DNA of 22,358 nucleotides from IMG/VR virus record IMGVR_UViG_3300048102_000044, positions 1 to 22,358 of that record; one strand, 5' to 3'. A program made the translations under genes and the position numbers. This document shows positions 1-19,153 of the stretch, in pieces (the stretch's first letter is position 1; each line of letters starts with the position of its first letter). Source of the DNA: a virus. The notes under the pieces are model-generated. The model was not told the origin of the DNA, searched no databases, and was given only the letters and a program-made list of their open reading frames with translations.

Positions 1-81
1 GAGTTATCTAAATGTGAAGTTTTATGTGCTATATGTCACAGAATAAAAACATTTGAAGGTCAGCACTGGAAAGGTAAATAA
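1..81 (+). CDS. C-terminal end of a probable HNH-type endonuclease (partial)
   Basis: Only the last 26 codons are inside the window, read in frame from base 1 to the TAA at 79-81. The end contains a KCEVLCAICHRI stretch, a C-x2-C-H arrangement typical of the last zinc-binding half of small phage HNH (His-Me finger) endonucleases. No catalytic core can be seen because the start lies upstream, so nuclease activity is inferred from this tail alone. The stop directly abuts the next start at 82, so the gene belongs to the same + strand operon. It could instead be a non-catalytic zinc protein. Confidence 0.55.
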   Translation, partial: ELSKCEVLCAICHRIKTFEGQHWKGK

Positions 82-174
82 ATGATTGAAGCGGTAACAG
101 GTGCATCTATACTTGCATTCTTGATTATTGGTTTTATATGTATCATATTAAGTGAGGTAAATAAATGATTGAAG
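72..174. repeat. Duplicated translation-initiation region upstream of and at the thyX start
   Basis: An identical 20-bp sequence occurs at 72-91 and 155-174, 83 bp apart in direct orientation. Each copy contains a purine-rich ribosome-binding site (AGGT), a short A/T spacer, the ATG and the first three codons (M-I-E) of the gene it starts. The first copy starts the 28-aa membrane ORF at 82, the second starts thyX at 165. The likeness continues weakly in protein: MIEAVTGAS against MIEVTYKGS. Confidence 0.85.
82..168 (+). CDS. 28-aa single-span membrane peptide overlapping thyX
   Basis: ATG at 82 directly follows the preceding stop, and TGA at 166-168 overlaps the thyX ATG as ATGA. The product is 28 residues with one hydrophobic stretch (about residues 8-24, including ILAFLIIGFICIIL) ended by SEVNK, so a single-pass inner-membrane peptide is likely. 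The start is supported by an AAAGGT purine box 6 nt upstream. Its first nine residues mirror the start of ThyX because the initiation region is duplicated. Function is unknown. It may serve mainly to couple translation into thyX, or it may be a real host-membrane peptide such as phages often express early. Expression is not proven. Confidence 0.6.
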   Translation: MIEAVTGASILAFLIIGFICIILSEVNK

Positions 175-836
175 TAACTTACAAAGGTAGTATGGGTAAT
201 GATCTTACAGTCTGTAACGCTGCGAGAGTTTCATTCGGAAAAGAAACTGAGTGGGATTATGAAGAGTCAGATGCTTACAGCTTTAAGCAACACCTTAAAA
301 AGAAAGATGAGAAGCTTATACAATACCTAGCCAAGCACAAACACATCAGCCCATTCGGGCATTGTTTTGCTAGTTTCCATATAAAGGCTCCAGTCTTTGT
401 AGCTAGACAGTTAGTCAAGCATAAGTTCCTACGATGGAATGAGATTAGCCGTAGGTATGTGGACAGTGAGCCTGAGTTCTATGAGCCTAGATCTTGGCGT
501 GGACGCAGTGAGGATAAGAAACAAGGTAGTACTGGCGAGTGGTATGATGACGATCTAGATTTTGTAGTTAAGGAAAGTCACACAGCTTGCTTTAACGCCT
601 ATAAAGAGTTGCTTGAGAATGATGTATGTCCAGAGCAAGCACGTATGGTACTACCACAGTCTATGATGACTGAGTGGTACTGGTCAGGTAGCTTGGATGC
701 GTTTGCTGATATGTGCAAGCTACGTTGTGCGTCTGACACACAGGCCGAGACACAAGAGGTAGCCAAACAGATTAGCGTCAATATGCACAAGTTGTTTCCT
801 GTTTCTTGGATGGCATTAGCAAAGGATAAAAGATAA
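165..836 (+). CDS. thyX: Flavin-dependent thymidylate synthase ThyX
   Basis: ThyX makes dTMP from dUMP using methylene-tetrahydrofolate, FAD and NADPH. It releases tetrahydrofolate, so no dihydrofolate reductase is needed. The 223-aa length fits the family (about 210-250 aa). The signature RHR-x7-S appears as K85-H86-K87 then x7 then S95, within KHKFLRWNEISRRY. Upstream are the HISPFGH segment (60-66) and R81-Q82, and downstream an ARMVLP segment typical of the C-terminal half. Both signature arginines are lysine, and R90 sits where the Thermotoga enzyme has a serine; the N-E and the later serine are kept. GAGGT lies 6 nt before the ATG. It overlaps the upstream 28-aa ORF by ATGA and the next gene by TAATG. 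It supplies dTTP together with the reductase at 8837. Confidence 0.95.
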   Translation: MIEVTYKGSMGNDLTVCNAARVSFGKETEWDYEESDAYSFKQHLKKKDEKLIQYLAKHKHISPFGHCFASFHIKAPVFVARQLVKHKFLRWNEISRRYVDSEPEFYEPRSWRGRSEDKKQGSTGEWYDDDLDFVVKESHTACFNAYKELLENDVCPEQARMVLPQSMMTEWYWSGSLDAFADMCKLRCASDTQAETQEVAKQISVNMHKLFPVSWMALAKDKR

Positions 837-991
837 TGGCAGGTAACATTAAAGGTGCAATCAAGGCATCAGCTATAGTCGCATTTATAATAGCTGGTCT
901 ACCTATACTGATTGCTATGACGTATGACGAGTTTCCTCGCTACTGTAAGCAAACTATTCTACTACCTTGTATAGGAGTAAGTGATGAATAA
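836..991 (+). CDS. 51-aa small membrane protein
   Basis: ATG at 836 overlaps the thyX stop (TAATG), and TAA is at 989-991. The product begins with a short basic, Ala-rich segment (MAGNIKGAIKASA), then one hydrophobic span of about 18 residues (roughly 13-28), then a polar tail with two cysteines (C37 and C45) separated by seven residues. One transmembrane helix with a short C-terminal domain is the simplest reading. I do not recognise a family. Coupling to thyX and the next ORF (8-bp overlap) supports a real gene. Confidence 0.65.
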   Translation: MAGNIKGAIKASAIVAFIIAGLPILIAMTYDEFPRYCKQTILLPCIGVSDE

Positions 992-1142
992 ACGTATACC
1001 AATGAAGGGCGGTGATGAGTATGATGGTCTTACTAAGGGGCGCAGATTTCTACACTGGAAGACAGGTCAACTAAAGAAGATCAAACGTGCCTACAACAAA
1101 AGGTTCCGTAAGTATAACAAAAAGGTAATAATAGATGAGTGA
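984..1142 (+). CDS. 52-aa highly basic small protein
   Basis: ATG at 984 lies inside the end of the previous ORF and TGA is at 1140-1142. The product is very basic: the middle (TKGRRFLHWKTGQLKKIKR) and the end (KRFRKYNKK) are dense in Lys and Arg, while the start carries an acidic GGDEYDGLTK stretch. Small basic proteins with such a GGDEYD start occur in other marine phage genomes from memory, but I know no assigned function. Nucleic-acid binding is a reasonable guess from charge alone. It overlaps both neighbours by 8 bp. Confidence 0.65.
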   Translation: MNKRIPMKGGDEYDGLTKGRRFLHWKTGQLKKIKRAYNKRFRKYNKKVIIDE

Positions 1143-1365
1143 ATACATAAACAAACCAGTAAAAGTAACAGAGGTAGAAGAACACGAGGATGGTAGTGCC
1201 ACATTACAAGTGGAGTGTGACCCTGAGACATTCGCAGCTATTTTTAACGTAGGGTTTGTAACACTAATAAAAAGAGGTTTAGAAAATGAAAAGTGGCAGA
1301 CTTGTGTAAGCTGCGGTGGCCCTGCAATGAATAAGATGTGCGGGTTTTGTTTAGAGGAAGAGTGA
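1135..1365 (+). CDS. 76-aa protein with C-terminal four-cysteine zinc ribbon
   Basis: The N-terminal 50 residues are acidic and predicted beta-rich (MSEYINKPVKVTEVEEHEDG, then a segment ending in LIKRG). The C-terminus holds two C-x2-C pairs, CVSCGG and CGFC, spaced to bind one zinc ion, followed by LEEE. No enzyme motif is visible. Such small zinc ribbons in early phage operons often contact nucleic acids or host proteins, but nothing here identifies a partner. ATG at 1135 overlaps the previous stop by 8 bp. Confidence 0.75.
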   Translation: MSEYINKPVKVTEVEEHEDGSATLQVECDPETFAAIFNVGFVTLIKRGLENEKWQTCVSCGGPAMNKMCGFCLEEE

Positions 1366-1366
1366 T

Positions 1367-1492
1367 ATGAACCTATCAGAATGGATTCCATACTTAATAG
1401 CCTTGTCAGTAATACTAATGAGCATTGGATTTATTCCCGGGGTTCTGTTATACCTTGTCGTAATGAGATTGAAGAGGATGTTTAAGAAATGA
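1367..1492 (+). CDS. 41-aa small membrane protein
   Basis: The gene starts 1 nt after the previous stop and its TGA (1490-1492) overlaps the next ATG. The product has a continuous hydrophobic stretch from about residue 7 to 33 (IPYLIALSVILMSIGF, then a Pro-Gly break, then VLLYLVV), followed by the basic tail MRLKRMFKK. This fits one long or two short membrane helices with the C-terminus in the cytoplasm by the positive-inside rule. Family not recognised. Tight packing between two other ORFs supports it as a gene. Confidence 0.6.
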   Translation: MNLSEWIPYLIALSVILMSIGFIPGVLLYLVVMRLKRMFKK

Positions 1493-1653
1493 GTATGGCT
1501 GGAACGATAGAAGATATGCGTTGGCAAATAAAGCAACAACAGAAAGAGATAGATACACTCAGAAGGTTCCTAACTAAGAATAAACTTATTAGAGAGTTTG
1601 ATGATGAAGAACGTAAGAGAGCATTAGAGAGATACGAGGCTAATCAAATATGA
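1489..1653 (+). CDS. 54-aa charged helical protein before the primase gene
   Basis: ATG at 1489 overlaps the previous stop, and TGA at 1651-1653 overlaps the primase-helicase ATG as ATGA. The peptide is mostly charged with heptad-like spacing of hydrophobics (MRWQIKQQQKEIDTLRRFL, later REFDDEERKRALERY), so a short coiled coil or single amphipathic helix is likely. No catalytic motif. A regulatory or scaffolding role for the replication proteins is possible only by position. Confidence 0.65.
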   Translation: MSMAGTIEDMRWQIKQQQKEIDTLRRFLTKNKLIREFDDEERKRALERYEANQI

Positions 1654-3224
1654 CACAAGAGATAGCGCATCAGCCTTGCCCATACGTAGAGTGTGGGTCT
1701 TCTGATGCATTTAGTTTCAACACGAGTGGGTTTGGCAAGTGTCACGCTTGTGACAGATCTTACCCATCTAAGTACCAGAAATTTGAGTGGGCAGCTGAGA
1801 AGTACCCCTTACCACAAGGATCTACTATGACATCTAATGTAAGAAGCCTACCCCAAAGATCAGAAAATACCCAAACGGGTAGTTATATAGCTATGAGGGG
1901 TATAACTCAGAAAACTATGGAAGACTACGGTGTTCTTACCTATCCTGATCGACAAGAGTATGTCTATCCTAGTGGTGGTAAGAAAGTTCGCAGACTAGAA
2001 GATAAAGTTTTCTACACAAAAGATAACTTCAAAGGTGATGAACTGTTTGGTATGAACCTATTTACGGCTGGGTCATCTAAGATGGTCACGATCACTGAGG
2101 GTGAGCTTGATGCATTATCAGTGGCTCAGATGCTTAAGAGTAACTACACTAACCCTGTGGTGTCTCTGCCCAGCGCAACACCTTCTAAGAAACTGTGGGA
2201 GAACTGTTCAGACTGGTTAAATAGTTTTGAGAAGATTGTTCTATCAGTTGACAATGATGAAGCTGGTAATGCAGTAGCTGATAAGATAGCAAAGCTATTC
2301 CCTAACAAAGTCTACCGTGTTCCTCACGATAAGTTTAAGGACGCAAACGAGTTCTTAACTAATAGGGCTAGTAACGAGTTTAAGACTGCTTGGTGGAATG
2401 CTAAGAAGTACACACCAGAGAATGTTCTTAACAGTACACAAGACTTTATATCTCTGTACAAAGATACGCCAGAGCATCAGTATATCCCTACAGGTATTCA
2501 AGCACTGGATGATAAGATCCTTGGCTTAATGCAAGGTCACTTTACAGTTATCAAGGCTCCGACTGGCATTGGTAAGACAGAAATAATGCGGTTCTTAGAA
2601 TACAATATGCTACAGCATAAGGTTCCATTCGCAGCTTGGCACTTGGAAGAGACTAAGCTACGATCACTGCTTGGTCTTGTGTCTTATGAGCTAGGTGATA
2701 ACTTGACACGCCGGGATCTGATTGCTGAGAAGAATGCTGATGATGCGGTGATGGATGCTATTGAGCGTATCACTAAGGATGAACTGTTTTATCAGTTTTA
2801 TTTAAGTGACGGTCAGGGTGCTGATGCATTGTGTGACCAGATACGTTACTTTAGTCAGGCGTGTGGCTGTAAGTTTGTCTTCTTTGAACCTATCCAAGAT
2901 GTTGTTTCTGGCTCATCTGAGGAAGGGAAGGAGCAGATGTTAGCTGATCTATCAGTACGTCTGTCTAAGTTATCCGCTGAGTTAAACGTAGGTATTGTTA
3001 CTATTGCTCACACTAATGACAATGGTGACCCCAAGTACTGTAAGATGATTGGTCAACGTGCCTCTGTTATTATTGATCTCAGTCGTGACAAGGAAGCCTC
3101 TGACTTTGATGAGCGTAACACTACACACATATCTGTACAGAAGAATAGACCCTGCTCAGAAGAAGGCTTTGCTGGTATGATGCGGTTCAATACAGAAACG
3201 TTTACCCTTAGAGAGGTTATCTGA
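1650..3224 (+). CDS. T7 gp4-like bifunctional DNA primase-helicase
   Basis: It unwinds the replication fork 5'-3' as a hexamer and makes RNA primers for the lagging strand. The 524-aa product (T7 gp4A is 566) has the expected order. An N-terminal zinc finger has C10, C15, C31 and C34; the first pair is spaced x4 rather than x2. The TOPRIM primase core has E150 in TITEGELDA and the DND at 201-203. The RecA-like helicase has Walker A APTGIGKT (303-310), a Walker B-like hydrophobic strand in KFVFFEPIQDV, and an AHTNDNG segment followed by RASVIIDLSRD near the C-terminus, matching the T7 arrangement. The zinc finger implies recognition of a specific priming site. It is coupled to the 54-aa ORF upstream and the endonuclease downstream, and pairs with the polymerase at 3652. 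Confidence 0.95.
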   Translation: MTQEIAHQPCPYVECGSSDAFSFNTSGFGKCHACDRSYPSKYQKFEWAAEKYPLPQGSTMTSNVRSLPQRSENTQTGSYIAMRGITQKTMEDYGVLTYPDRQEYVYPSGGKKVRRLEDKVFYTKDNFKGDELFGMNLFTAGSSKMVTITEGELDALSVAQMLKSNYTNPVVSLPSATPSKKLWENCSDWLNSFEKIVLSVDNDEAGNAVADKIAKLFPNKVYRVPHDKFKDANEFLTNRASNEFKTAWWNAKKYTPENVLNSTQDFISLYKDTPEHQYIPTGIQALDDKILGLMQGHFTVIKAPTGIGKTEIMRFLEYNMLQHKVPFAAWHLEETKLRSLLGLVSYELGDNLTRRDLIAEKNADDAVMDAIERITKDELFYQFYLSDGQGADALCDQIRYFSQACGCKFVFFEPIQDVVSGSSEEGKEQMLADLSVRLSKLSAELNVGIVTIAHTNDNGDPKYCKMIGQRASVIIDLSRDKEASDFDERNTTHISVQKNRPCSEEGFAGMMRFNTETFTLREVI

Positions 3225-3652
3225 TGCAGGAATCTTTGTGGAATGATCTACCAGTACATATTAAAGATGTTGAAGATAACAATTCTTATAAAGGTAGTGG
3301 TCAAACTAAGGTTTGTAAGATTTGTAATATAGAAAAACCTATAGAAAACTTTGACTCTCAGTATTTTAAAAAGGATGGTAGCAAAAGCCACAGAGGTGAT
3401 TGTAGATCTTGTACACAGTTCAATCAAAGAATAGTAAGAAATTTGAGAGAAATACACGGCCCACCACCTGATCTATGTGAGTGTTGCGGTAAACCACCCA
3501 ATGGTGTTACAGGTCTTGTAACTGACCACTGTCACACCACTTATAAGTTTAGAGGCTGGTTATGTACCAGTTGCAATCTAGCTAATGGGCATTTAGGAGA
3601 TAAGCCCGAAACAATAATGAAATTATATAAATATATGACAAAGGAAAAGTAA
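3224..3652 (+). CDS. Recombination endonuclease VII-like (His-Me finger) nuclease
   Basis: Endonuclease VII enzymes cut branched DNA such as Holliday junctions. The C-terminal half of this 142-aa protein has the family core: CECCG (85-89), LVTDHCHTT (98-106, metal-binding D101, H102 and H104), RGWLC..C (110-117), then N118, G122 and D126. The N-terminal half has a separate C31-x2-C34 and C60-x2-C63 zinc site around a FDSQYFKKDGS loop, an extra domain common in phage versions. T4 endonuclease VII is 157 aa. The gene sits between primase and polymerase with 1-nt overlaps on both sides. Its first 180 bases are clearly more A+T-rich (31% G+C by hand count) than the adjacent primase end, hinting at later acquisition. 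It could act as a homing-type HNH nuclease rather than a resolvase. Confidence 0.88.
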   Translation: MQESLWNDLPVHIKDVEDNNSYKGSGQTKVCKICNIEKPIENFDSQYFKKDGSKSHRGDCRSCTQFNQRIVRNLREIHGPPPDLCECCGKPPNGVTGLVTDHCHTTYKFRGWLCTSCNLANGHLGDKPETIMKLYKYMTKEK

Positions 3653-5484
3653 TGCCAGTTTTTGATATTGAAACTGATGGCTTGGATGCCACAAAAATAC
3701 ACGTACTGTCTTGGGAAGATGACTCTGGTAAGATTAAGAGTACTCACGACTATAATACTATGCGTACATTCTTTGAACAATCCGATACACTTATTGGTCA
3801 CAACATTATCAGGTTTGATATACCTGTGGTTAATAAAGTATTAGGTATAAAGGTTAAAGCTAAGTTAGTTGATACCTTAGCCCTATCTTGGTACGTTAAT
3901 CACACTAAGCCAAAGCACGGCCTAGAGACTTATGGAGAGTATTACAATGTAAAGAAACCAGAGGTTACGGACTGGGTAAACTTAACTCAGGAAGAGTATG
4001 CTCATAGGTGTAATGAGGATGTAAAGATTAACTCTCGTTTATGGCGTGACTTGGATATCAAGCTTTCAAAGCTGTACCCTAACGATCAAGACAAGTGGCA
4101 GTTTATAAAGTACCTATCATTCAAGATGGAATGTGCTGCGGAGCAAGAAGCCTTGAAGTGGAAGGTTGATATTGAGTCTGCAAAAGGTTACCTGTACGTG
4201 TGGGAAGCTAAGAAAGAGTTAAAGATAGTTGAGCTTGCGGAAGCTATGCCAAAGCAGATCTTGACTAAGGTACAGCAACGTCCAAAGGTTATGTACAAGA
4301 AAGATGGCGAACTGTCTTCTCACGGGGAAAAGTTTGAAGAACTGCGTAAACAGTACAAACAACCAGACAGTGTTCAGTCTTTTGTTGTTAAGACAGGTGA
4401 ACGTCAGGGTAACCCTAACTCACCAGAGCAAGTAAAAGAATGGCTCTACTCTATTGGCTGGGTTCCTCGAACATTTAAGTTTGTACGAGGGCCAGACGGT
4501 GTTGAGCGTCAGGTTCCACAAGTACGTAAGGATGGAGAGCTTTGCCCCTCTGTAACTAAACTTATCTCTGAAGACCCTGCAGTCGCTATCCTAGATGGAC
4601 TGTCTGTCCTTAGCCACCGTATCGCTGTGCTTAAAGGTATCATAGACTGTGAGTCTGATGGTTATGTACAGGCTACGATTGCGGGAATGACAAACACCTT
4701 ACGGTTCAAACACGCAAAGCCTTTAGTTAACCTTCCCTCAGTAGAGAAGCCCTACGGTAAAGAGATACGTGGACTACTTACTGCGCCAGAGGGTTACGTT
4801 CTATGTGGGGCTGATATGACTAGCCTAGAGGACACGACTAAACGTCACTATATGAAGCCTCTTGACCCTAACTATGTAGCTGAAATGTCTAGGGATGGCT
4901 TTGATCCTCACCTTGACCTAGCTAAACACGCCGGGATAATTAGCCAAGAGGATATTGACAAACATAACTCAGGTGAAAAGTCTCTTAAAGATCTACGAAA
5001 GAATTACAAGGTAGTAAACTACTCAGCTACCTATGGCGTAGGAGCCGCTAAACTGGCTCGTGAGACAGGTATGTCAAAGAAGGAAGCTCAGAAGCTACTA
5101 GATGCATTCTGGTCACGTAACTGGTCAGTACAGAAGGTGGCATCAACACTACGTAAGCGTGAACTGTTTGGCGGTATGTGGGTTCAGAACCCTGTATCAA
5201 AGTTCTGGCATAGCCTACGCAGCGAGAAGGATCGTTTCTCTACACTAAACCAAAGCACTGGAGTTTATTGCTTCGATGTTTGGGTTAAGAAATGTCGTGA
5301 CAAGGACGTTAGGACTGTAGGTCAGTTTCACGATGAAATAATAGCACTTGTAAAAGAAGGAAAGCAGATAGAAACAGCAATGAATATGAACTACTCTATA
5401 GAAGAAGTTAACAGACAGCTACGACTGAATGTTGATCTTGGCGTTGATGCACAGTTTGGAAAAACTTACGCAGACATACACTAA
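3652..5484 (+). CDS. Family A (T7-like) replicative DNA polymerase with 3'-5' exonuclease
   Basis: This is the phage replicase. The 610-aa protein starts with a proofreading domain: Exo I at DIETDG (5-10), Exo II at GHNIIRFD (49-56) and Exo III ending at D123. At Exo III the usual Tyr of Y-x3-D is R119. The polymerase domain has motif A GADMTSLE (386-393, D388 and E393), motif B with R449, K453, Y457 and Y461-G462 spaced as in E. coli R754/K758/F762/Y766, and motif C QFHDE (558-562). Tyr at the 762-equivalent position is what T7 has and is associated with virulent phages. T7 polymerase is 704 aa; the shorter length may mean a reduced thumb or no thioredoxin-binding loop. It overlaps the preceding gene by TAATG and is the last gene before the promoter gap. 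Confidence 0.96.
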   Translation: MPVFDIETDGLDATKIHVLSWEDDSGKIKSTHDYNTMRTFFEQSDTLIGHNIIRFDIPVVNKVLGIKVKAKLVDTLALSWYVNHTKPKHGLETYGEYYNVKKPEVTDWVNLTQEEYAHRCNEDVKINSRLWRDLDIKLSKLYPNDQDKWQFIKYLSFKMECAAEQEALKWKVDIESAKGYLYVWEAKKELKIVELAEAMPKQILTKVQQRPKVMYKKDGELSSHGEKFEELRKQYKQPDSVQSFVVKTGERQGNPNSPEQVKEWLYSIGWVPRTFKFVRGPDGVERQVPQVRKDGELCPSVTKLISEDPAVAILDGLSVLSHRIAVLKGIIDCESDGYVQATIAGMTNTLRFKHAKPLVNLPSVEKPYGKEIRGLLTAPEGYVLCGADMTSLEDTTKRHYMKPLDPNYVAEMSRDGFDPHLDLAKHAGIISQEDIDKHNSGEKSLKDLRKNYKVVNYSATYGVGAAKLARETGMSKKEAQKLLDAFWSRNWSVQKVASTLRKRELFGGMWVQNPVSKFWHSLRSEKDRFSTLNQSTGVYCFDVWVKKCRDKDVRTVGQFHDEIIALVKEGKQIETAMNMNYSIEEVNRQLRLNVDLGVDAQFGKTYADIH

Positions 5485-5489
5485 TTTAC

Positions 5490-5518
5490 TTGACACTACT
5501 TAGCTAATAAGCTATAAC
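5490..5518 (+). promoter_or_regulatory. Sigma-70-type promoter with inverted repeat in the spacer
   Basis: The 69-bp gap between polymerase and the next gene contains TTGACA (5490-5495), exactly 17 bp of spacer, and TATAAC (5513-5518). That is a perfect -35 and a 5/6 match to the -10. Transcription should start near 5525, leaving a leader of about 29 nt before ATG 5554 with AAAGGG (5541-5546) as ribosome-binding site. The spacer holds an inverted repeat, TAGCT-4-AGCTA (5501-5514), running into the -10, which could be an operator. It implies use of host RNA polymerase for the second replication block. Confidence 0.8.
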
Positions 5519-5553
5519 TAAGTTTCTTTTTAACGCTCAGAAAGGGCATAAGT

Positions 5554-6378
5554 ATGAATACGGAATTAGCAACTTTTGGTGATGATCTTGAAGCAATGAT
5601 GGGGATCATCCCGGCTAGTACAGACCAATCGTCTACACCAAGTATAACTAGGGTTACTCAGATCCATAAAGCTATTATGGGTATGCAAGATGTGGGCGGT
5701 AAGCAAATAAAAGCAGAGATCCTACCTGTTGGAACATATCAAATCACACAGGGTGATGAGGTTGTGTACGCACAACAAGTTACTGTACGAATTATGGCTA
5801 TTCGTATGCAATGGGTACGGTGGAATAATAACACCGAACAGTTTGAGAAGTCAGTTATGGCACCCACTTTAAAGGGTGACTTAAAGGATAACATTGGTAG
5901 CTACAATATTGGGCGTCCTTCTGGTGGTTTTGTAGAGGATTATGACAGCTTGTCTGATGCTATGAAAGAGCATATGAAGTCTGTCAAAAGGGTTAAGGTT
6001 CTTATGGGCCACCTGTCTGTAGACTCCCCTGTAGATGAAGAAGGTAACTCTGTAAGCACTACTATCCAAGATATTCCATTTATTATGGACGTTAAGAATC
6101 GAGACAGTTTAAAATCTATTGATTCAGTCTTAGCTAGAAAACGTCCTATAGAAGTTCTCACTCAGGAGATTAACTTAACAGGTGACAGTCAGTCTATTCC
6201 TAACGGGCCTGATTATGGTGTTATAGTTGCCTCCCCGGGATCAAAGGTTGACATTCAGCCTACTGATAAGGAAAACATCCAAAACTTTCAAGACTATATT
6301 GACTACGTAAATAATATGATTTTGGAAAAGTATAATGAGAACTGTGAAGATAATACTATTGAAGGAGAGGTGTTCTAA
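5554..6378 (+). CDS. 274-aa DNA-metabolism protein, possible ssDNA-binding protein
   Basis: I do not recognise a catalytic domain. The protein is predicted to be mixed beta (segments such as YAQQVTVRIMAIRMQWVRW and KRVKVLMGHLSV) and contains a GDLKDNIGSYNIGRPSG segment. The C-terminus is acidic and ends in an aromatic residue (ENCEDNTIEGEVF), the arrangement by which phage and bacterial SSBs recruit partners; T7 gp2.5 also ends in an acidic tail with Phe. Being the first gene of the promoter-driven block, directly before the nuclease genes, is where T7 has gp2.5 (ahead of gp3). SSB function is therefore an inference from tail and position only. ATG chosen because AAAGGG lies 7 nt upstream. 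Confidence 0.6.
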   Translation: MNTELATFGDDLEAMMGIIPASTDQSSTPSITRVTQIHKAIMGMQDVGGKQIKAEILPVGTYQITQGDEVVYAQQVTVRIMAIRMQWVRWNNNTEQFEKSVMAPTLKGDLKDNIGSYNIGRPSGGFVEDYDSLSDAMKEHMKSVKRVKVLMGHLSVDSPVDEEGNSVSTTIQDIPFIMDVKNRDSLKSIDSVLARKRPIEVLTQEINLTGDSQSIPNGPDYGVIVASPGSKVDIQPTDKENIQNFQDYIDYVNNMILEKYNENCEDNTIEGEVF

Positions 6379-7232
6379 TGAACCACCCTGCAGAGTTATC
6401 TGTCTACACGTACTTGCAGAAAGCTATGGCGGGTGAAGTTGCAATGGCAGAGGGGGTGATTGATAAAGTCGCCTCTGATGTCAAGGCAGCTATGCTAAAG
6501 CAGTTTGCTAGTGGGCCTCGTGATAGTTTTAGGTTACGTATGTCTAACATAGGTAAGCCTAAGTGTCAGCTATGGTTTGAGAAGAATGATCCAGAAGGTA
6601 AGGAACCTTTTCCACCTCACTTCCTTATGAATATGATTCTTGGTGATATTGTCGAGGCTGTATTCAAAGGCTTGCTTACCGCCGCTGATGTTAGCTTCAA
6701 AGATAATGATAAAGTTGTCCTAAAACTCCCTAATGGTCAAGAGATTAAGGGGGAGTATGATATGGAAATGGATGGAAGGATTGACGATGTTAAGTCTGCA
6801 TCTTGGTATTCATACAACAACAAGTTTGACTCTATTGAAGAGATGCAAAAGAGTGACGGGTTTGGATATGTATCTCAGTTAGTTGGTTATTCAGAGGGCG
6901 CTGGTAAGGATGTAGGTGGCTGGTGGGTTATCAATAAGAACAATGGTGAGTTCAAATATGTTGATGCTTCCGAGGTAGATAAAGAGAAAGTTCTTAAGGA
7001 TATTCAAGACACTGTTGATTATATTGACAATGATGAACCTTTTGAACGTTGCTTTCAACCTGTTCCAGAGACTTATCGCAAGGTGCCTAGTGGTAATATT
7101 GTGTTAAATGATGGGTGTAATTTCTGTCAGTTTAAACATAAGTGTTTCCCTAATCTAAAAGTACTACCCTCAAAAGTGTACAAGGGTAAACTAACGCCAC
7201 CCCTAGTTAATTATGTCGAAGTTAATGGCTAA
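6378..7232 (+). CDS. Cas4/RecB-family PD-(D/E)XK exonuclease, probable Fe-S protein
   Basis: The nuclease core is visible as G-E-Y-D128, then D137-x-K139 in IDDVKS (the D-x-K catalytic pair), then Q167-x3-Y171 (the RecB-type QxxxY motif). One cysteine before the core (C63) and three after it (C247, C250, C256) match the Cas4/AddB pattern in which four cysteines hold a [4Fe-4S] cluster. Length is 284 aa. The likely role is a DNA exonuclease acting in replication, recombination or host DNA breakdown, taking the place of T7 gp6, which is unrelated in sequence. TAATG overlap with the upstream gene; its end overlaps the endonuclease I gene. A CRISPR adaptation role is not suggested, as there is no array or cas1. 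Confidence 0.82.
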   Translation: MNHPAELSVYTYLQKAMAGEVAMAEGVIDKVASDVKAAMLKQFASGPRDSFRLRMSNIGKPKCQLWFEKNDPEGKEPFPPHFLMNMILGDIVEAVFKGLLTAADVSFKDNDKVVLKLPNGQEIKGEYDMEMDGRIDDVKSASWYSYNNKFDSIEEMQKSDGFGYVSQLVGYSEGAGKDVGGWWVINKNNGEFKYVDASEVDKEKVLKDIQDTVDYIDNDEPFERCFQPVPETYRKVPSGNIVLNDGCNFCQFKHKCFPNLKVLPSKVYKGKLTPPLVNYVEVNG

Positions 7233-7659
7233 GAGAAGACATAACACTAGGTTATATCGCAGTGGTCTTGAAGTTGAGGCCGCTGCTTTTTTATCGGAGC
7301 ATCAAAAAGAAGTTCGATACGAGAAGTTAAAGATAGAGTGGGAAGATCTAAAATACCGCACATATACACCAGACTTTGAACTGGACAACGGTATTATTAT
7401 AGAAACCAAAGGTATCTTTAGCGCAGCTGACAGAAGAAAGCATCTTGAAATACAAAGACAACACCCTAAGTTAGATATAAGGTTTGTCTTTAGTAATGCT
7501 AACTCTAGACTGTACAAAGGTGCAAAGTCTCGTTATTCAGATTGGTGTAATAAGTATGGTTTCAAATGGTCACATAGACTAATACCAAAGGATTGGTTGA
7601 CAGAGCGTGGAAAACCTTGTAAAGAAGTTAGAATAACTGTAAAAAGAAGGAAAGCCTAA
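7213..7659 (+). CDS. T7 endonuclease I-like Holliday junction resolvase
   Basis: T7 gp3-type endonucleases resolve four-way junctions and help degrade host DNA. All four catalytic residues are present with almost the same spacing as T7 (E20, D55, E65, K67): here E20 in RSGLE, D54 in YTPDF, E64 and K66 in IIETKG. Downstream LDIRFVFSNA and a final Lys-rich tail also fit the family. Length 148 aa (T7 149). The first ATG (7213) overlaps the previous gene by 20 bp and has no clear ribosome-binding site. An in-frame ATG at 7225 (M5) has GAAG close upstream and may be the true start. It ends in TAATG with the next gene. Confidence 0.94.
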   Translation: MSKLMAKRRHNTRLYRSGLEVEAAAFLSEHQKEVRYEKLKIEWEDLKYRTYTPDFELDNGIIIETKGIFSAADRRKHLEIQRQHPKLDIRFVFSNANSRLYKGAKSRYSDWCNKYGFKWSHRLIPKDWLTERGKPCKEVRITVKRRKA

Positions 7660-7991
7660 TGGCTCGTTATGAAGTTAAAGAAGATGAAGCGGCATTAGTT
7701 GTTAAGCCTGTTATAGAAGAAGATGGAAGTTGGTCAGGAGATATTGCTACTGGTATATATGTTTCTCCACATCTTGACACTGATACACAAGCTCACTTAG
7801 TACACGTTATAACACTTATGTCAGCCTTTCTAGATTGGGTTGAAGGATACCCAGAGATCTTAGATGAGATTGAAGATCATCGTAATATGTTAATGGAAGA
7901 TTATATGGAAGAGAAGAAGAAACCAGAGATAACTAGAGAAGGTAATGTTCTTCGCCTTACTAGATGGACAAAGACAGAGGGAAGTGCATAA
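7659..7991 (+). CDS. 110-aa acidic protein of unknown function
   Basis: No family recognised. The product is strongly acidic with a beta-rich start (MARYEVKEDEAALVVKP), a central hydrophobic helix (AHLVHVITLMSAFLDWVEGY, about residues 46-65), a Glu- and Lys-rich helix (MEDYMEEKKK), and a short final segment REGNVLRLTRWTK. The hydrophobic stretch is too polar at its ends for a confident membrane span. It overlaps both neighbours by 1 nt (TAATG), so it is co-translated with endonuclease I and the DUF3310 protein. Conserved position would be the main clue to its role. Confidence 0.75.
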   Translation: MARYEVKEDEAALVVKPVIEEDGSWSGDIATGIYVSPHLDTDTQAHLVHVITLMSAFLDWVEGYPEILDEIEDHRNMLMEDYMEEKKKPEITREGNVLRLTRWTKTEGSA

Positions 7992-8293
7992 TGACAGACT
8001 TTGCTATAGAAGAACTCTTTGAAGGTATGGAAGAAGAGTTTACTAAGAAAGAGCCACCAGTAACGGGTCACAACCCAGTAAGTAAGCCAGTTCATTACAA
8101 TCAGGCAGGTATAGAGTGTATCGAAGCTATACGCGCAATGACTTGTAAGATGGATGGTACTAGTGCTTATATGGCTGGCAATGTACTGAAATACGTTTGG
8201 CGTCACGAGTATAAAAATGGTTTAGAAGATTTAGAAAAGGCTCAAGTGTATCTTGGTTGGTTAATTGAAAACTATAAAGGAAAACATAAATGA
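7991..8293 (+). CDS. DUF3310 / T7 gp1.7-like nucleotide kinase domain protein
   Basis: The 100-aa protein has the DUF3310 pattern: V-S-K-P-x-H-Y (about 32-38), then I-E-C-I-E-A-I, A-G-N-V-L-K-Y-V-W-R-H, and D-L-E-K-A-x-x-Y. The same pattern forms the C-terminal domain of T7 gp1.7, reported to phosphorylate dTMP and dGMP. A role in raising dTTP and dGTP pools fits the neighbouring MazG, NrdJ and ThyX. The T7 protein has a longer N-terminal zinc-binding part that is absent here; instead there is an acidic lead (EELFEGMEEE). The reading frame is open to 7964, but ATG 7991 was chosen because it overlaps the previous stop as TAATG like its neighbours. Kinase activity is inferred from the family. 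Confidence 0.82.
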   Translation: MTDFAIEELFEGMEEEFTKKEPPVTGHNPVSKPVHYNQAGIECIEAIRAMTCKMDGTSAYMAGNVLKYVWRHEYKNGLEDLEKAQVYLGWLIENYKGKHK

Positions 8294-8457
8294 GAAAGTT
8301 TAGTATAACTTTTCTTCTTAAACTTGATGAAGACAATCACATCCTGTCCTCTGTAGAGGAAGCTCACGAGGAAGATGTTTATGATTACATCAAAGACTTG
8401 TTCTATGACTCAGAGGCAATTAAATTAGAAAACTTAAATATAAAGGAACGGCAATGA
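8290..8457 (+). CDS. 55-aa acidic small protein
   Basis: ATG 8290 overlaps the DUF3310 stop (ATGA), and TGA 8455-8457 overlaps the mazG-like ATG. The product starts with a beta strand (MRKFSITFLLKLD) and continues with an acidic helix (SSVEEAHEEDVYDYIKDLF) and a second strand (AIKLENLNIKER). The beta-alpha-beta outline resembles many small phage proteins of unknown role. No motif recognised. Four-base overlaps at both ends make it a convincing gene despite its size. Confidence 0.7.
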   Translation: MRKFSITFLLKLDEDNHILSSVEEAHEEDVYDYIKDLFYDSEAIKLENLNIKERQ

Positions 8458-8840
8458 TTAACGAGACAGATCTAGAAGCATTTGGGTATTTTGATATGTT
8501 TCAGAATAGTCCTGACTATAGTAAAGACCCTGTTAGGTTTTACAGTCAGTTTGTTGAAGACAAGGTTTTCACTAAAGGTAGAGAGCGTTTATTAGAAAAC
8601 ACTCTAGGTCTATGCGGTGAAGCAGGAGAGGTGGCTGAAAAGATCAAGAAGGTCTTTAGAGATAAAAATAAATTTAGTGATGAAGATATCTTGAAAGAAT
8701 TAGGGGATGTCTTATTTTATGTAACAGCCCTATCAAATATCTTTGGGGGTAATCTACAAAAGACTATGGAAATGAATATGGCAAAGCTTGACGATAGAGA
8801 GCAGCGTGGTGTTTTAAAGGGATCAGGAGACAATAGATGA
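8454..8840 (+). CDS. MazG-like nucleotide pyrophosphohydrolase
   Basis: MazG-type enzymes cleave NTPs or dNTPs to monophosphates, and in phages are thought to adjust nucleotide pools. The metal-binding pattern is clear: GEAGEVAEKIKK gives E56, E59 and E62, and ELGDVLFYV gives E82 and D85 (the E-x-x-D of the family). The protein is 128 aa, a single MazG domain. The preceding 45 residues (FQNSPDYSKDPVRFYSQF) are a phage-specific lead. It lies between the gp1.7-like gene and nrdJ with ATGA overlaps, so it is made together with the reductase. Substrate cannot be told from sequence; dUTP, ppGpp and damaged nucleotides have all been proposed for relatives. Confidence 0.9.
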   Translation: MINETDLEAFGYFDMFQNSPDYSKDPVRFYSQFVEDKVFTKGRERLLENTLGLCGEAGEVAEKIKKVFRDKNKFSDEDILKELGDVLFYVTALSNIFGGNLQKTMEMNMAKLDDREQRGVLKGSGDNR

Positions 8841-10735
8841 ATAACTACCTACCAACAGACTACCAGAGCTTTATTGCTCTGTCACGATACGCCAAGTACT
8901 ATGACGGTCAGGGGCGTGAGACTTGGGGTGACACAGTTCAGCGATATGTTGATAACGTAGTACACCCTAAGACGGGTAAAGATAGCTATGTTAAGCGTAT
9001 TAGTGAAGCTATTATGAACCTAGAAGTTATGCCATCTATGCGAGCTATTATGACTGCAGGGCCAGCACTTGACAGAGACAACACTGCCGGGTATAACTGT
9101 AGTTACTTACCCGTAGATGACCCTAAGTCCTTCGATGAGGCTATGTACATTCTCTTGTGTGGTACTGGTGTCGGATTCTCCGTCGAGAGGCAGTATATCA
9201 GTAAACTCCCAGAAGTTCCTGAGTTGTTCGATAGCGATACTGTTGTCGTTGTCAAGGACAGTAAAGAGGGTTGGGCTAAGGCGTTCCGTCAAGTTCTTGC
9301 ACTCCTCTGGGCTGGTGAGATCCCTAAGTGGGATGTTTCTCGTGTACGTCCTGCAGGTGCTAGGCTTAAGACGTTTGGTGGTAGAGCTAGTGGCCCAGCG
9401 CCTCTAGTAGAACTATTTAACTTTGCTATCACTACGTTTAAGAACTCACAGGGACGTAAGCTATCCAGCGTTGAGTGTCACGATCTTATGTGCTTCATTG
9501 GTCAGATAGTCGTAGTTGGTGGTGTACGCCGTAGTGCTATGATTTCTCTGTCTAACCTGAGTGATGATCGTATGCGTCACGCTAAGTCAGGTCAGTGGTG
9601 GGAGACTGCTAGTTGGAGAGCCTTAGCTAATAATAGCGTTAGTTACACTGAAAAGCCTGATATGGAAACGTTTATGCGTGAGTGGATGGCATTAGTTGAG
9701 TCTAAGTCAGGTGAGCGTGGAATCTTTAATCGCCAAGCAAGTAAGAAACAGGCTGAGAAATATAACCGAAGGGATAGTAATTACGACTTTGGTACTAACC
9801 CCTGCAGCGAAATAATTTTGCGCCCATATCAATTCTGCAACTTAACAGAGGTAGTTGTACGTGCTACAGATACTATTACAGATCTGGAAAGAAAGGTTCG
9901 TATGGCTACGATTCTGGGAACCATTCAGTCATCCTACACAAAGTTTCCCTACTTGCGAAAGGTGTGGGCAAACAACACAGAAGAAGAGCGGTTGCTTGGT
10001 GTGTCACTTACGGGAATAATGGACAACCCTCTTATGACATCAGCAAACGCTGGATTGGAGAAAACTCTTGACCACCTTAGAAATGTGGCTGTTGCTACTA
10101 ATGCTGAATGGGCTGACCGCCTTGGTATACCTCATAGCACTGCAATTAGCTGCGTCAAACCATCGGGAACGGTCTCCCAGTTGGTGGATTCAGCCTCTGG
10201 GATTCACGCTCGCCATAGTGCCTATTATATCCGTACTGTGCGTGGTGATAATAAAGATCCCTTGACGCAGTTTATGAAAGATAAGGGTGTTCCTAATGAA
10301 CCTTGTGTGATGAAGGGTGACACTACTACAGTGTTTAGCTTCCCAGTTAAGTCACCAGAGGGTGCTGTTACTCGTAATGATATGACTGCCATTGAGCAAC
10401 TAGAGACTTGGCTAACGTATCAGCGTCATTGGTGTGAGCATAAGCCAAGTGTGACTATATCGGTACGTGACTCTGAGTGGATGGATGTGGGTGCATTTGT
10501 GTATAAGCACTTTGATGAAATGTCAGGTGTGTCTTTCTTGCCACACACAGATCATACTTATCAGCAAGCTCCGTATCAGGACTGCACTAAGGAAGAGTAT
10601 GAAGAGTTGCTATCAGCTATGCCAAAAGATATTAACTGGTCAGAACTTTCAGAGTATGAGAACGAAGATAATACTGCAGGAAGTCAAACTATGGCTTGTA
10701 CAGGTGACTCTTGCGAAATAGTGGATATAACCTAA
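8837..10735 (+). CDS. nrdJ: Adenosylcobalamin-dependent (class II, monomeric) ribonucleotide reductase
   Basis: This enzyme reduces ribonucleotides to deoxyribonucleotides using adenosylcobalamin to make a thiyl radical, so it needs no oxygen and no second subunit. The 632-aa sequence has all the key residues of the Lactobacillus leichmannii type: C88 (YNCSY), the thiyl C323 and E325 in NPCSEIILRP, C334 (QFCNLTE), and the C-terminal reducing pair C621-x4-C626 (CTGDSC), the same spacing as C731-x4-C736 there. LLCGTGVGFSVER (107-119) is also typical. It is shorter than the 739-aa reference. It overlaps mazG by ATGA and the glutaredoxin by TAATG. There is no leader, so no cobalamin riboswitch controls it locally. 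The host must supply B12. Confidence 0.96.
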   Translation: MNNYLPTDYQSFIALSRYAKYYDGQGRETWGDTVQRYVDNVVHPKTGKDSYVKRISEAIMNLEVMPSMRAIMTAGPALDRDNTAGYNCSYLPVDDPKSFDEAMYILLCGTGVGFSVERQYISKLPEVPELFDSDTVVVVKDSKEGWAKAFRQVLALLWAGEIPKWDVSRVRPAGARLKTFGGRASGPAPLVELFNFAITTFKNSQGRKLSSVECHDLMCFIGQIVVVGGVRRSAMISLSNLSDDRMRHAKSGQWWETASWRALANNSVSYTEKPDMETFMREWMALVESKSGERGIFNRQASKKQAEKYNRRDSNYDFGTNPCSEIILRPYQFCNLTEVVVRATDTITDLERKVRMATILGTIQSSYTKFPYLRKVWANNTEEERLLGVSLTGIMDNPLMTSANAGLEKTLDHLRNVAVATNAEWADRLGIPHSTAISCVKPSGTVSQLVDSASGIHARHSAYYIRTVRGDNKDPLTQFMKDKGVPNEPCVMKGDTTTVFSFPVKSPEGAVTRNDMTAIEQLETWLTYQRHWCEHKPSVTISVRDSEWMDVGAFVYKHFDEMSGVSFLPHTDHTYQQAPYQDCTKEEYEELLSAMPKDINWSELSEYENEDNTAGSQTMACTGDSCEIVDIT

Positions 10736-10971
10736 TGGCAAACGGTATTTACACTCTAGTGGGGCGGGTAGACTGCCCTCACTGTTCAAAGGCTATGGGT
10801 CTGTTGAGAGATAATGGTTACACAGTTAACTACTATTCTCTCAATGACTCTAAATGGGTACTTGACTTATTCAAAAAGTCTGGTATAAAGACGGTTCCAC
10901 AAATTTGGGATCAAGATGGTAACTGCATAGGTGGTTATCAGGAACTAAAACAACTCCTTGAAAGGGAATAA
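10735..10971 (+). CDS. Glutaredoxin
   Basis: A 78-aa thioredoxin-fold protein with active site C14-P-H-C17, the cis-proline in KTVPQ (P55) and the GGY motif at 66-68, all in glutaredoxin positions. It most likely re-reduces the C-terminal cysteine pair of the reductase encoded just upstream; the genes share TAATG. The open frame reaches back to 10711, but ATG 10735 is the supported start because the extra eight residues lie inside the reductase gene and the family begins at this point. Confidence 0.94.
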   Translation: MANGIYTLVGRVDCPHCSKAMGLLRDNGYTVNYYSLNDSKWVLDLFKKSGIKTVPQIWDQDGNCIGGYQELKQLLERE

Positions 10972-10972
10972 A

Positions 10973-11092
10973 ATGACAGGTATTGAATTTATGGCAGTCG
11001 CAACTATCGGTATGGTGGTTGTTGGTGAAGTGGTTAACTTAGCAGCTGAGTATGTTCCACCTCTTGTAGATCAAGTAATGGGCTGGTTCTAA
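10973..11092 (+). CDS. 39-aa small hydrophobic protein
   Basis: It starts 1 nt after the glutaredoxin stop, whose last codons supply an AAAGGGA ribosome-binding box, and ends in TAATG with the next gene. The sequence has a hydrophobic run (FMAVATIGMVVVGEVVNLAA) interrupted by a glutamate, then EYVPPLVDQVMGWF. It may be a membrane peptide or an amphipathic helix. Family not recognised. Confidence 0.6.
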   Translation: MTGIEFMAVATIGMVVVGEVVNLAAEYVPPLVDQVMGWF

Positions 11093-11280
11093 TGTATGCT
11101 TTGCTGTTAGTTATGATGTTTGAAGGGAAGGTACAAGTACACGCCTTTAATGGTTTGTTTATGGATCGTGCGTCTTGTAGTGAGGTAGGTTCTAAAATGG
11201 AAACTCGCTTAGAAGATTCAAAACCGGGGCCATCAGCTACAGCTAAAACGTATTGTTTCCAAGTACCAGAAAGTGCATAA
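11092..11280 (+). CDS. 62-aa protein with possible export signal and two cysteines
   Basis: The start is hydrophobic (MYALLLVMMF) and the remainder is soluble with C29 and C55, spaced as for one disulfide bond, and a segment rich in Pro and Ser (SKPGPSATA). A short secreted or periplasm-facing peptide is possible, but the hydrophobic part is shorter than a normal signal peptide and lacks a basic N-region. No family recognised. TAATG overlap upstream, 2-nt gap downstream. Confidence 0.65.
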   Translation: MYALLLVMMFEGKVQVHAFNGLFMDRASCSEVGSKMETRLEDSKPGPSATAKTYCFQVPESA

Positions 11281-11282
11281 GT

Positions 11283-11486
11283 ATGGGTATAGAAGAAGAA
11301 GCCAAAAGGCTCACAAAGGCCAAGCAGGAAAAGTTTTATGATGAATTAGTTACCTTGTTACTACCTGCTAAACGTCATATAGAAAGTCATCTCTATGATT
11401 CACGCCCAAGAGAGAGGGCATTAGAGAGGCTTGATGACGTTGCTACTATATCACGGTTTGCTGCAGAACTATTTAAACTAAAATAA
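11283..11486 (+). CDS. 67-aa charged helical protein, last gene of the + arm
   Basis: The frame is open from 11253, but ATG 11283 is preferred because it follows the previous stop by 2 nt. The product is charged and probably all helix (IEEEAKRLTKAKQEKFYDEL, later RPRERALERLDDVATISRF), with conserved-looking hydrophobic spacing typical of a small helical bundle. Function unknown. The TAA is followed at once by the convergent terminator. Confidence 0.7.
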   Translation: MGIEEEAKRLTKAKQEKFYDELVTLLLPAKRHIESHLYDSRPRERALERLDDVATISRFAAELFKLK

Positions 11487-11514
11487 AAGGGGGCCGAAAA
11501 GCCCCCTCTTTTTA
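11487..11514. terminator. Bidirectional intrinsic terminator between convergent operons
   Basis: A G+C-rich hairpin has stem AGGGGGC (11488-11494) pairing with GCCCCCT (11501-11507), loop CGAAAA, followed on the + strand by CTTTTT (11508-11513). On the - strand the same stem is followed by TTTT. It lies in the 28-bp space between the stop of the last + gene (11486) and the stop of the 1188-aa - strand gene (11515), so it can end transcription from both sides. Confidence 0.93.
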
Positions 11515-14500
11515 TTATCTTTTGTTTTCTTTACGGTAAACACTTATAAAAGAAAAATATGTTTGTAGTATCTCTAGGGATTCTGGATCATTCCCTAGTT
11601 CACCTATATTACCATCCCATCCAAATCGTTCCTTCAAGAACTTCCTAGCCTCTGCTCTCTCTTCACGAGAACCAGTAACTGTAGCCTTTCTTCGTAGGGC
11701 ATTTATAGAACCCTCTGGAAGATCCGTTGTGAGCAAGTGTTTCCTTACCTGAGACTTAACATCATTTTTTATACTATTTAATTGAACTCTTCTTGTATTG
11801 ACACTAGCGTTCTTCCAGCTATCACTTCCTATAACGTCTAGTACCCTTTCCTCAAATAGTGGAACAACAACCTCATTTAAGATTTTATCGTATGCAGGTA
11901 TCTGGCTTCTTTCGTTAGCCTTCCAAGGATGTGCCTCTGCCATAGAGTAAGCTTTCTCTACACCCGTCCTAGTAGGAACCTGAGTTATACCCATAATTCT
12001 TAGGATAGGGTTAGCATCTTTAATCTTTCCCTCTCTTGTAGCTACTCTAAGTTCCTCACCAGTAATCCCATCAATCTTATCACTAAAGATTTCCAGTAAG
12101 TTATCTACATACTTTGATGCCCCTACAGTGAAGGTAGAGAAGCCTTTCTCTTGCCTAACATCCTTAGCTGTATCTGAGTCGTTTATAAACCCAACCATCT
12201 TATTCAGAGCATCTAATGGGCGTGTAAAGCCAGCTAAGATATTACCACCCTGTTTATACAGAGCATTGAATGAAGCCTGTCTAGCCCCCTCTTCTTGGTT
12301 ATACAGAACGTCAAACATATTGTACAAATCATTACCAAACTGTAGATCTCTAGCGAACTGGCCTACAGCTAACTGTGCAGTAACATCTTCGATAAGATCC
12401 CTTGGTACAGTCTCACCATTCTTAGATAAGTTACCAGCGCGTCCTACAGCAAGCCACAGAGATACCGGGAACATATTCTTAGCGTCAATAACCTTACCGC
12501 CACCAGTATCCATATGATGCCAAGCATAACCCTTCTCACGCTTTCTCTCATCGTATTCCATCGCTAACTTTAAAGACGAGAAACCAACCAAACTCCTAGA
12601 GAAAGCCTCTACTGTTTTGATGTTACGTTTCTCTTTCTTCATAATAGCTGATGCACCCTCAACCATACCACCTACACTCCACTGGTAGGCCGTAGCTAGG
12701 GTGTTATTAAAGAACCGACCAAAGGGTAAGATCGTACCAATGACAGGTATGTTAGAGAAGTTCTCCACCTGTTTAGCCGCTGCATTAAGCAACTGGTCTT
12801 CTGTGGTGTAGTCCTTAGCAAAAACTGACTTCATAGTCGTATCTAGAGCGCCACCAATCACATCATCATCAATGACTGACAGATCACCTTTCTTTAGTGT
12901 TTCCTCTAGGGTAACGCCCTTGTTAAGTCTTAACCACTTGTCCATCTCAGTGATGTACATCTGTGACTTAGTAAATGTATCCTGTAGCTTAACACCAGTA
13001 AGCCTATTAGACCCATCTGCTAAAGCCTCTGCCCTCTTAAACCAAGCACTGTCAGGGTCAATCCCATACCGTTTACCACTACGTTCAACACCACCAGTAT
13101 AGCTCTCAAACAGAATGCTTCTAAGGTCTTTATTCTCATTCAGAAACTGCATATATGTGTCGTGAGTTGTGTAGGGGTCTAGTAAGTTACGAATCTTCTG
13201 AGACTGTATCTGCATATAGATCTTAGCCACACGTAAAGATTCTCTACCAGCCTCAGTTCTAGTTCCACCCTTAGCAAGTCCATACATTGTACTTCCTGTA
13301 GCGGAGAAAAGGTCTGCTAATGACTGACCAACATAAAACTGACCAAAGCCTAGAACGTTTACTGCAGTAGTAGCAGGTGATGATACAAGCATCCTACGCC
13401 ATAGGTTCTGTCCATACTGACCTACCCTAGCTTTCTTAGCCTTCTTAGCTTCATCATCTAATGCTTTGATAGTTCCAGCCTGACCTTCAATTAACTGATG
13501 ACCGTGTAAATTAGCTGCATCTAAAGTCTTACGAACCTGAGACATTACATTTAGAACCTGACCACCCTTACGGATTTCAATAGCTAGTAAGTCACCTAAG
13601 CTTGTAGCTAACTCCGTAGTCTGACCAAGAGTAAAACCTTTAGGTTCTAAGGATCTGTTAATCTTCTTTAGTTCTTCCTGAGACATTGACTGTACAACAG
13701 AAGTCATTACATCAGAGACAGTAAAACCTTTGGGTAACTTTAGACCCTGATCTTTAAATAGCTTTACAAGACCACCCTTACCATCACCATCAGGGCCAAG
13801 CATCATATCTTTTATGAAATCTACAGATGTAGGAACATCATCGAAGCTATCCTTGCCAGCCTCTACCTTTACATCCCAAGCCCTAGCTTTCTCCATAATG
13901 ATTGCTGCAGCATCCTTTGCCGCTTCCTCACTAAGTTTTATCTGTTTAGCTGCTTGTCTTGCTGATAGCTGTCTTGCTGCCTCATCAATACCTTCCCGGG
14001 ATTCAGTTCTAGCTCTAGCTGACTCAACTAATATATCAGAATCAGATAACCCAGACTTACCAGCCGCTCGACCAAATAGTAACTGAGTAGCACCACCTAT
14101 CCCACCAAGAACAGAACTAAACCCTGTCTGAACTAGGTTATAGTCTTGCTGTGCCCCAGCCTTTAGTAGGGTGTTTTGTAGAGTAACATCGTGCATAACA
14201 GCAAAGGTAGAGTCTAGGGCAGTTGTTCCCATTAAGACTTTCTTGTTGTCTTTTGCAGCTTGCTTCTTTAGAACCTCTTTTCTGGCTCTCTTCTTAGCTT
14301 CTAACAAAAAGATCTCACGCTCTCTACGTGCGGCCTGTCTACGGATCTTAGCAGACACTGGGTTCTTAACGCCCTCTGCAGCAAATCGTTTAGCCGCCAT
14401 CTTAGCGGCCTCTTCACCAGCTTCCTTTGCAGCTTGCTGTGTTGCACCACTAGCTAAAGCTTTCTTACCAGCCTCAACAGCGGCCCTCTTAGTTGCCATA

Positions 14501-15081: not shown

Positions 15082-15084
15082 CTA

Positions 15085-17405: not shown

Positions 17406-17417
17406 TTTTATTGTACC

Positions 17418-17840: not shown

Positions 17841-17844
17841 TACC

Positions 17845-19152: not shown

Positions 19153-19153
19153 T

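Follow-up and report, generated by a model that had tools for sequence, protein, structure and literature searches.

A conserved promoter, probably read by host sigma70, at a mosaic junction between replication and recombination genes of a marine phage

In a phage gene block where nearly every gene touches or overlaps the next, a lone intergenic gap raises the question of whether it holds a promoter and, if so, what reads it. The window, which is the whole stretch of 22,358 nucleotides analysed here, poses this question at 5485-5553, a gap of 69 bp between the polymerase stop codon at 5484 and an ATG at 5554. Elsewhere in 1-11486 the plus-strand genes overlap or lie within about 2 bp of one another, and therefore no other real gap precedes the terminator at 11488-11507. 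The initial annotation had described the gap in these terms and had placed in it a host-type promoter with an inverted repeat as a possible operator; the gene layout bore out the first claim and, on re-reading the window sequence, the positions given for the gap, both hexamers and the repeat were all correct. The features are as follows.

3652..5484, plus strand: DNA polymerase A (PHROG 17), last gene of the upstream block
5490..5495, plus strand: -35 element TTGACA, from sequence (of 55 distinct upstream sequences, 54 have TTGACA and one has TTGACG)
5496..5512, plus strand: 17-bp spacer, its length (16 or 17) kept across lineages, its sequence not
5501..5514, no strand: inverted repeat TAGCT-AATA-AGCTA, claimed as an operator, judged a chance match (shuffles; not conserved)
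5513..5518, plus strand: -10 element TATAAC with C at position -7, with TA after it in every relative (TATAACTA in all 55 distinct sequences)
5523..5527, plus strand: predicted transcription start, about 6-7 nt past the -10 element, placed from the usual spacing
5539..5546, plus strand: ribosome-binding site AGAAAGGG, from sequence, an A/G-rich AAAGG-type site being kept in relatives
5554..6378, plus strand: first gene of the downstream block, with a beta-rich product
6378..11486, plus strand: remaining genes of the downstream block (Cas4-type exonuclease, endonuclease I, DUF3310-type protein, MazG, ribonucleotide reductase, glutaredoxin-like protein)
11485..11510 (core 11488-11507), no strand: bidirectional terminator-like hairpin at the block end, ahead of minus-strand genes

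The product of 5554-6378 received no Pfam or PHROG assignment, and a fold search returned weak matches only, some of them to viral single-stranded-DNA-binding proteins. Because the matches are weak, this function is tentative, and the product is possibly a single-stranded-DNA-binding protein. Beyond the terminator, the minus strand carries very long genes at 11515-21262, the products of which (1188, 588, 507 and 702 amino acids) had no PHROG match; the 1188-residue product resembles a CRP-207 protein (45%), and the 702-residue product resembles proteins of CRP-2 and HMO-2011 (43-46%).

Constraint on the gap promoter and on the inverted repeat

The pattern TTGACA-N16..18-TATAAY was expected 0.04 times per window (100 shuffles) and was found twice. 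The second occurrence, TTGACA-17-TATAAC at 9069-9097, lies inside the ribonucleotide reductase gene and is also present in the related contig L010 (at 8773); coding constraint is perhaps its only cause. Since this second pair is inside a gene, the hexamers alone prove little and it is conservation that carries the weight. An automated promoter scan, which demands T at the last -10 position, did not call the site at 5490-5518, and a scan of IMG/VR for exact TTGACA-N17-TATAACTAAG was left out of the evidence, the pattern being too short for specificity.

For the comparison of relatives, IMG/VR contigs with the same polymerase were used, plus loci with a homologue of the 5554-6378 gene. The latter numbered 93 (87 IMG/VR contigs and 6 isolates), of which 90 cover the upstream site and three are contigs that end within it. 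TTGAC(A/G)-16/17-TATAACTA stands ahead of the homologue in 90 of the 90 covering loci, which comprise 55 distinct sequences, although the compared phages are related, so that the counts are of non-independent events and 55 overstates their number. The spacer is 16 bp long in 38 of these sequences and 17 bp in 17. The isolates that share the promoter are HMO-2011 and the five roseophages CRP-1, CRP-2, CRP-207, CRP-345 and CRP-603. Closer to the window, L007 and L008 (96% polymerase identity) keep both hexamers, and in L009-L015 (82-83% polymerase identity) the left half of the spacer reads differently, while TTGACA-17-TATAAC and the leader are kept. The -35 and -10 elements are therefore kept, with their spacing, in close relatives, a loss of which would have spoken against the initial annotation.

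The position of the -35 element provides a further line of evidence. In HMO-2011-type phages it falls inside the last polymerase codons (N-W-L-D-T), and its codons Leu CTT and Asp GAC were invariant in 59 of 59 distinct sequences, six of these rows being from the window-like lineage, in which the stretch is non-coding. Directly beside them synonymous sites vary: the next Asp is GAT in 34 and GAC in 19, and the preceding Asn is AAT in 32 and AAC in 27. In the lineage of the window the same -35 element is kept although it lies outside the polymerase gene. The invariance of CTT-GAC next to varying synonymous sites, together with the survival of the -35 element outside the gene, therefore shows selection on the DNA itself.

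Two explanations other than a promoter have to be weighed against this conservation. That an AT-rich gap contains the two hexamers by chance could draw on the second match within a coding region, but with 55 distinct sequences conserved at the junction and with the constraint at synonymous sites it is barely credible. Very unlikely, too, is that the conserved block is an RNA leader element acting in translation control: the segment from the -10 element to the start codon is also fairly conserved, but the strongest constraint falls on the two promoter elements, which keep a fixed distance across a spacer of variable sequence, and the search for a leader structure found no consensus over 37 distinct leaders (RNAalifold, 0.0 kcal/mol).

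The inverted repeat behaves differently from the hexamers. Its arms, TAGCT at 5501-5505 and AGCTA at 5510-5514, are separated by a 4-nt loop, and the right arm, which reaches the first two -10 bases, is the upstream edge of the -10 element itself (GCTATAAC). The left arm, which lies in the freely diverging part of the spacer, is changed to TATCT in L007 and L008, and the repeat is lost in L009-L015 because the left half of their spacer differs; it is absent also from every HMO-2011-type phage examined. In IMG/VR, the exact 18-mer of repeat plus -10 element was found in 9 contigs only, all of the same lineage and at this junction, once in each, and no second copy of the repeat was found in the window or in lineage contigs of up to 15 kb. 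The initial annotation had proposed that a phage DNA-binding protein on TAGCT-AATA-AGCTA would block the -10 element and thereby switch the downstream block. The repeat is real and overlaps the -10 element, and when the spacer is shuffled with the promoter elements kept in place, just 9.5% of the shuffles yield such a repeat, but a repeat of at least 5 bp with a loop of 3-6 arises in 39% of dinucleotide shuffles of the gap and in 20% of all 69-mers of the window, and profile searches recognised no regulator among the small genes of the window. An operator at 5501-5514 is quite improbable on these grounds, and we rejected it on conservation and shuffles. The idea of an operator in the gap can thus be dropped, and 5490-5518 is a conserved predicted promoter under constraint, within which the inverted repeat is not under constraint. 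As such it ranks among the better-supported regulatory sites of a dominant, little-studied group of marine phages.

The mosaic junction and the reader of its promoter

The genes on the two sides of the gap resemble those of different phages. By tblastn, the primase/helicase and polymerase of the window match CRP-6 at 74% and 66% and match nothing in HMO-2011 or CRP-2. The 5554 gene, the exonuclease and endonuclease I match CRP-207 at 45%, 73% and 75%, whereas of these three only endonuclease I has a match in CRP-6, at 48%; among phage isolates, homologues of the 5554-6378 gene were found in HMO-2011-type phages only. Judged from these similarities, the gap is a mosaic junction, with CRP-6-like replication genes upstream and HMO-2011-like recombination genes plus the promoter downstream, and, in line with the initial annotation, it parts a replication block from a block for recombination and nucleotide metabolism. 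The promoter would have come with the HMO-2011-like block when this was joined to the CRP-6-like one.

It has been reported that more than 60% of alphaproteobacterial sigma70 promoters lack T at -7, that 17 bp is their commonest spacing and that the usual distance from the -10 element to the transcription start is 6 bp (PMC8407463). Set against the features of such promoters, the gap has a TTG(ACA) -35, a TATAA-type -10 and a spacing within 16-18 bp. The isolates with this junction infect SAR116 and RCA Roseobacter strains and, by analogy with these relatives, the host of the window phage would be an alphaproteobacterium. In HMO-2011, further sigma70-like sites lie ahead of other genes, and a paper on HMO-2011-type phages mentions neither an RNA polymerase nor a sigma factor nor promoters. 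Because of the -10 element that ends in C, the spacing, the hosts, the sigma70-like sites of HMO-2011 and the sigma-free paper, host sigma70 is the likely reader of the window promoter, helped perhaps by CarD. The conserved -35, -10 and spacing likewise favour the host sigma70-type promoter that the initial annotation had read in the gap. The sigma70-like sites elsewhere (37617 minus, 31754 minus and 4491 plus in HMO-2011; 4397 minus in the locus L294) stand before a coat protein gene, a structural gene, an early gene and a leftward early block.

The gap would then work as the promoter of the second half of an early/middle operon. Alphaproteobacterial RNA polymerase with housekeeping sigma70 would bind TTGACA (5490-5495) and TATAAC (5513-5518), and transcription would start near 5525 and cover the gene for the single-stranded-DNA-binding-like protein, the exonuclease, endonuclease I, MazG and ribonucleotide reductase as far as the terminator at 11488-11507; the same block may also be reached by read-through from upstream. 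The use of host sigma70, the start site and any timing are what we infer for a promoter whose sequence and conservation are directly observed. We regard it as highly probable that the gap is a host sigma70-read promoter of the second operon half, that it arrived with the HMO-2011-like block and that the repeat is no operator.

Sigma factors and promoters of the CRP-6-like sister phages

Polymerase relatives without the 5554 family (L016-L080 and CRP-6) have a different promoter-like element in the same gap. It is made up of a -35 block, A, and of a block B directly ahead of a TATA-like core. With the gap element of a genome as the scoring model for that genome, further copies were found before the primase and before the structural operon, in addition to the one after the polymerase (the gap). 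Copies in three genomes are listed here.

CRP-6 (L084): 4091, plus strand; 8030, plus strand; 42213, minus strand
L051 contig (G011): 33088, plus strand; 37081, plus strand; 26131, minus strand
L049 contig (G010): 8332, minus strand; 4340, minus strand; 14520, plus strand

Blocks A and B are alike within a genome and different between genomes. When gap sites were compared with primase sites in 19 distinct pairs, A agreed at 8.16 of 11 positions versus 5.20 when shuffled, and B at 5.74 of 6 versus 2.80, agreements that none of 20,000 shuffles reached for either block, whereas the bases between A and B showed little agreement (5.11 of 9 versus 4.50 when shuffled). Within one close subclade the agreement of B was still significant (p 0.0007), as was that of A in another (p 0.005). 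A non-coding end region of CRP-6, 44333-44927, contains many TTGCAAAAATGTCAC-type and CCCTCCGATGGAAAA-type repeats and is possibly an origin or control region.

These phages encode a small protein that could read such elements. In CRP-6 it is gp14 (3586-4101), annotated as hypothetical, with its gene end inside the primase-site promoter; homologues lie at 7318-7869 in L051, 167-712 in L063 and 7367-7936 in L018. The proteins are 163-202 amino acids long and have regions 2 and 4 without the other sigma70 regions. CRP-6 gp14 matches PHROG 1740 (E 1.3e-7) and, weakly and below the cut-off, Pfam sigma70 r2/r4, and a profile search matches it to sigma structures (8x6g, 1.6e-9). An AlphaFold2 model of the L051 homologue (mean pLDDT 78, with a low pTM of 0.36, the relative placement of its two domains being not fixed) has a fold that matches sigma factors, among them the ECF sigmas SigL, AlgU and sigmaE. 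By profile and model, CRP-6 gp14 is a predicted small ECF-like sigma factor. A single-subunit phage RNA polymerase had been considered as the reader of the sister elements and was dropped once the sigma factor was found; none is annotated in CRP-6.

The promoters of the sister phages change together with this sigma factor. In 55 distinct sigma-promoter pairs, the type of a four-residue recognition helix fixes the -35 type with no exception: NKMW goes with TTAC, NQVW with TATA, NQKW or HQKW with TCTA, TKQA with TTGA and NQST with CATA. The mutual information between helix and -35 is 1.971 bits, equal to the entropy of A; 5000 permutations within backbone clusters gave 0.51 on average and 0.99 at most. 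The same pairing occurs on different backbones, NKMW/TTAC in 5 of 6 backbone clusters and NQVW/TATA in two. Among the sigma columns, residue 166 in the helix is the strongest for A and residues 49-70 in region 2 are the strongest for B; of the region-2 types, HNVARR types go with AT-CCC (17 of 17) and SWTARD types with GT-CCC (7 of 7). In L048, L036 and L032 the gap promoter disagrees with the primase site while their own sigma matches the latter, which would be expected of recombinants or of chimeric assemblies, which metagenomic contigs can be.

A homologue of this sigma factor was not found in L001, a longer neighbour of the window, in the 24-kb L010 contig, in the complete HMO-2011 and CRP-2 genomes or in the window, where the search covered a fragment (22 kb of a genome of probably 45-55 kb). 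With no such sigma found there and one present in the sisters, the junction has two solutions, which would be a host promoter in phages that lack the factor and a phage-sigma promoter in those that encode it. One could suppose instead that the window promoter, as in the CRP-6-like sisters, needs a phage-encoded sigma or activator and not host sigma70 alone, given that the corresponding position in sisters with a homologous polymerase holds a promoter that looks sigma-dependent and that the invariant TATAACTA is longer than a plain -10 element. This is unlikely in view of the lack of a sister-type sigma in the sequences just named, of a -35 element that is the sigma70 consensus, and of a full element of which the window, the first 50 kb of HMO-2011 and the first 50 kb of CRP-2 each contain a single copy, as opposed to two or three copies of the sister elements.

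With host sigma70 as the preferred reader in the window, the sequence patterns make it probable that the junction is a regulatory swap point in abundant marine phages: sister phages would have an ECF-like sigma with -35 and -10 specificities that switch as discrete alleles in step with their promoters, and the window and the HMO-2011 types, in which no such sigma was found, a host sigma70 promoter. If so, the sister phages would together provide orthogonal sigma-promoter pairs as a natural collection, the diversity of which is kept perhaps to avoid cross-talk between co-infecting phages. Their sigma factors and promoters would be readable as a code, in which the -35 can be predicted from a few residues of the recognition helix, and the bases before the -10 from residues of region 2. 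Two questions thereby become directly testable, namely how changes of sigma specificity arise in nature and what makes phages diversify this specificity.

Comparison with known promoters and sigma factors

The alphaproteobacterial sigma70 promoters described by Myers, Noguera and Donohue in 2021 (PMC8407463) share with the window gap a TTG-type -35, 17-bp spacing and a -10 without T at -7, whereas the window site is a phage promoter and the spacing is 16 in most of its HMO-2011-type relatives. The HMO-2011-type phages themselves (HMO-2011, CRP-1, CRP-2, CRP-207, CRP-345 and CRP-603) have the same promoter at the same place and a homologous downstream block, but the window differs from them in having a primase/helicase and polymerase of the CRP-6 kind and its -35 element outside the polymerase gene. 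The Roseobacter phage CRP-6 group (PMC6918029) has a primase/helicase and polymerase homologous to those of the window and a promoter-like element at the same junction; unlike the window, CRP-6 encodes the ECF-like sigma gp14 and has three copies of its own promoter element and different downstream recombination genes.

Phage sigma factors with their own promoters are already known (PMC8948821, PMC9429907). Essential ones occur in T4 and SPO1 (PMC9429907), and phage 7-11 has a sigma factor with the bipartite promoter GTAAtg-16-aCTA (PMC8948821). It has also been shown that the -35- and -10-binding domains of ECF sigmas can be recombined in the laboratory (PMC3817407), and in the literature searched we found no report of natural allele switching in phages of the kind seen for the sister sigma. 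The closest likeness, to the sister phages and not to the window, is that of the phiEco32-like phages 7-11 and phiEco32 (PMC8948821), which have a small phage sigma and in which the genome positions of the promoters are kept while their sequences differ. In contrast to these, the specificity in the sister phages appears to switch between close relatives, in step with the recognition helix.
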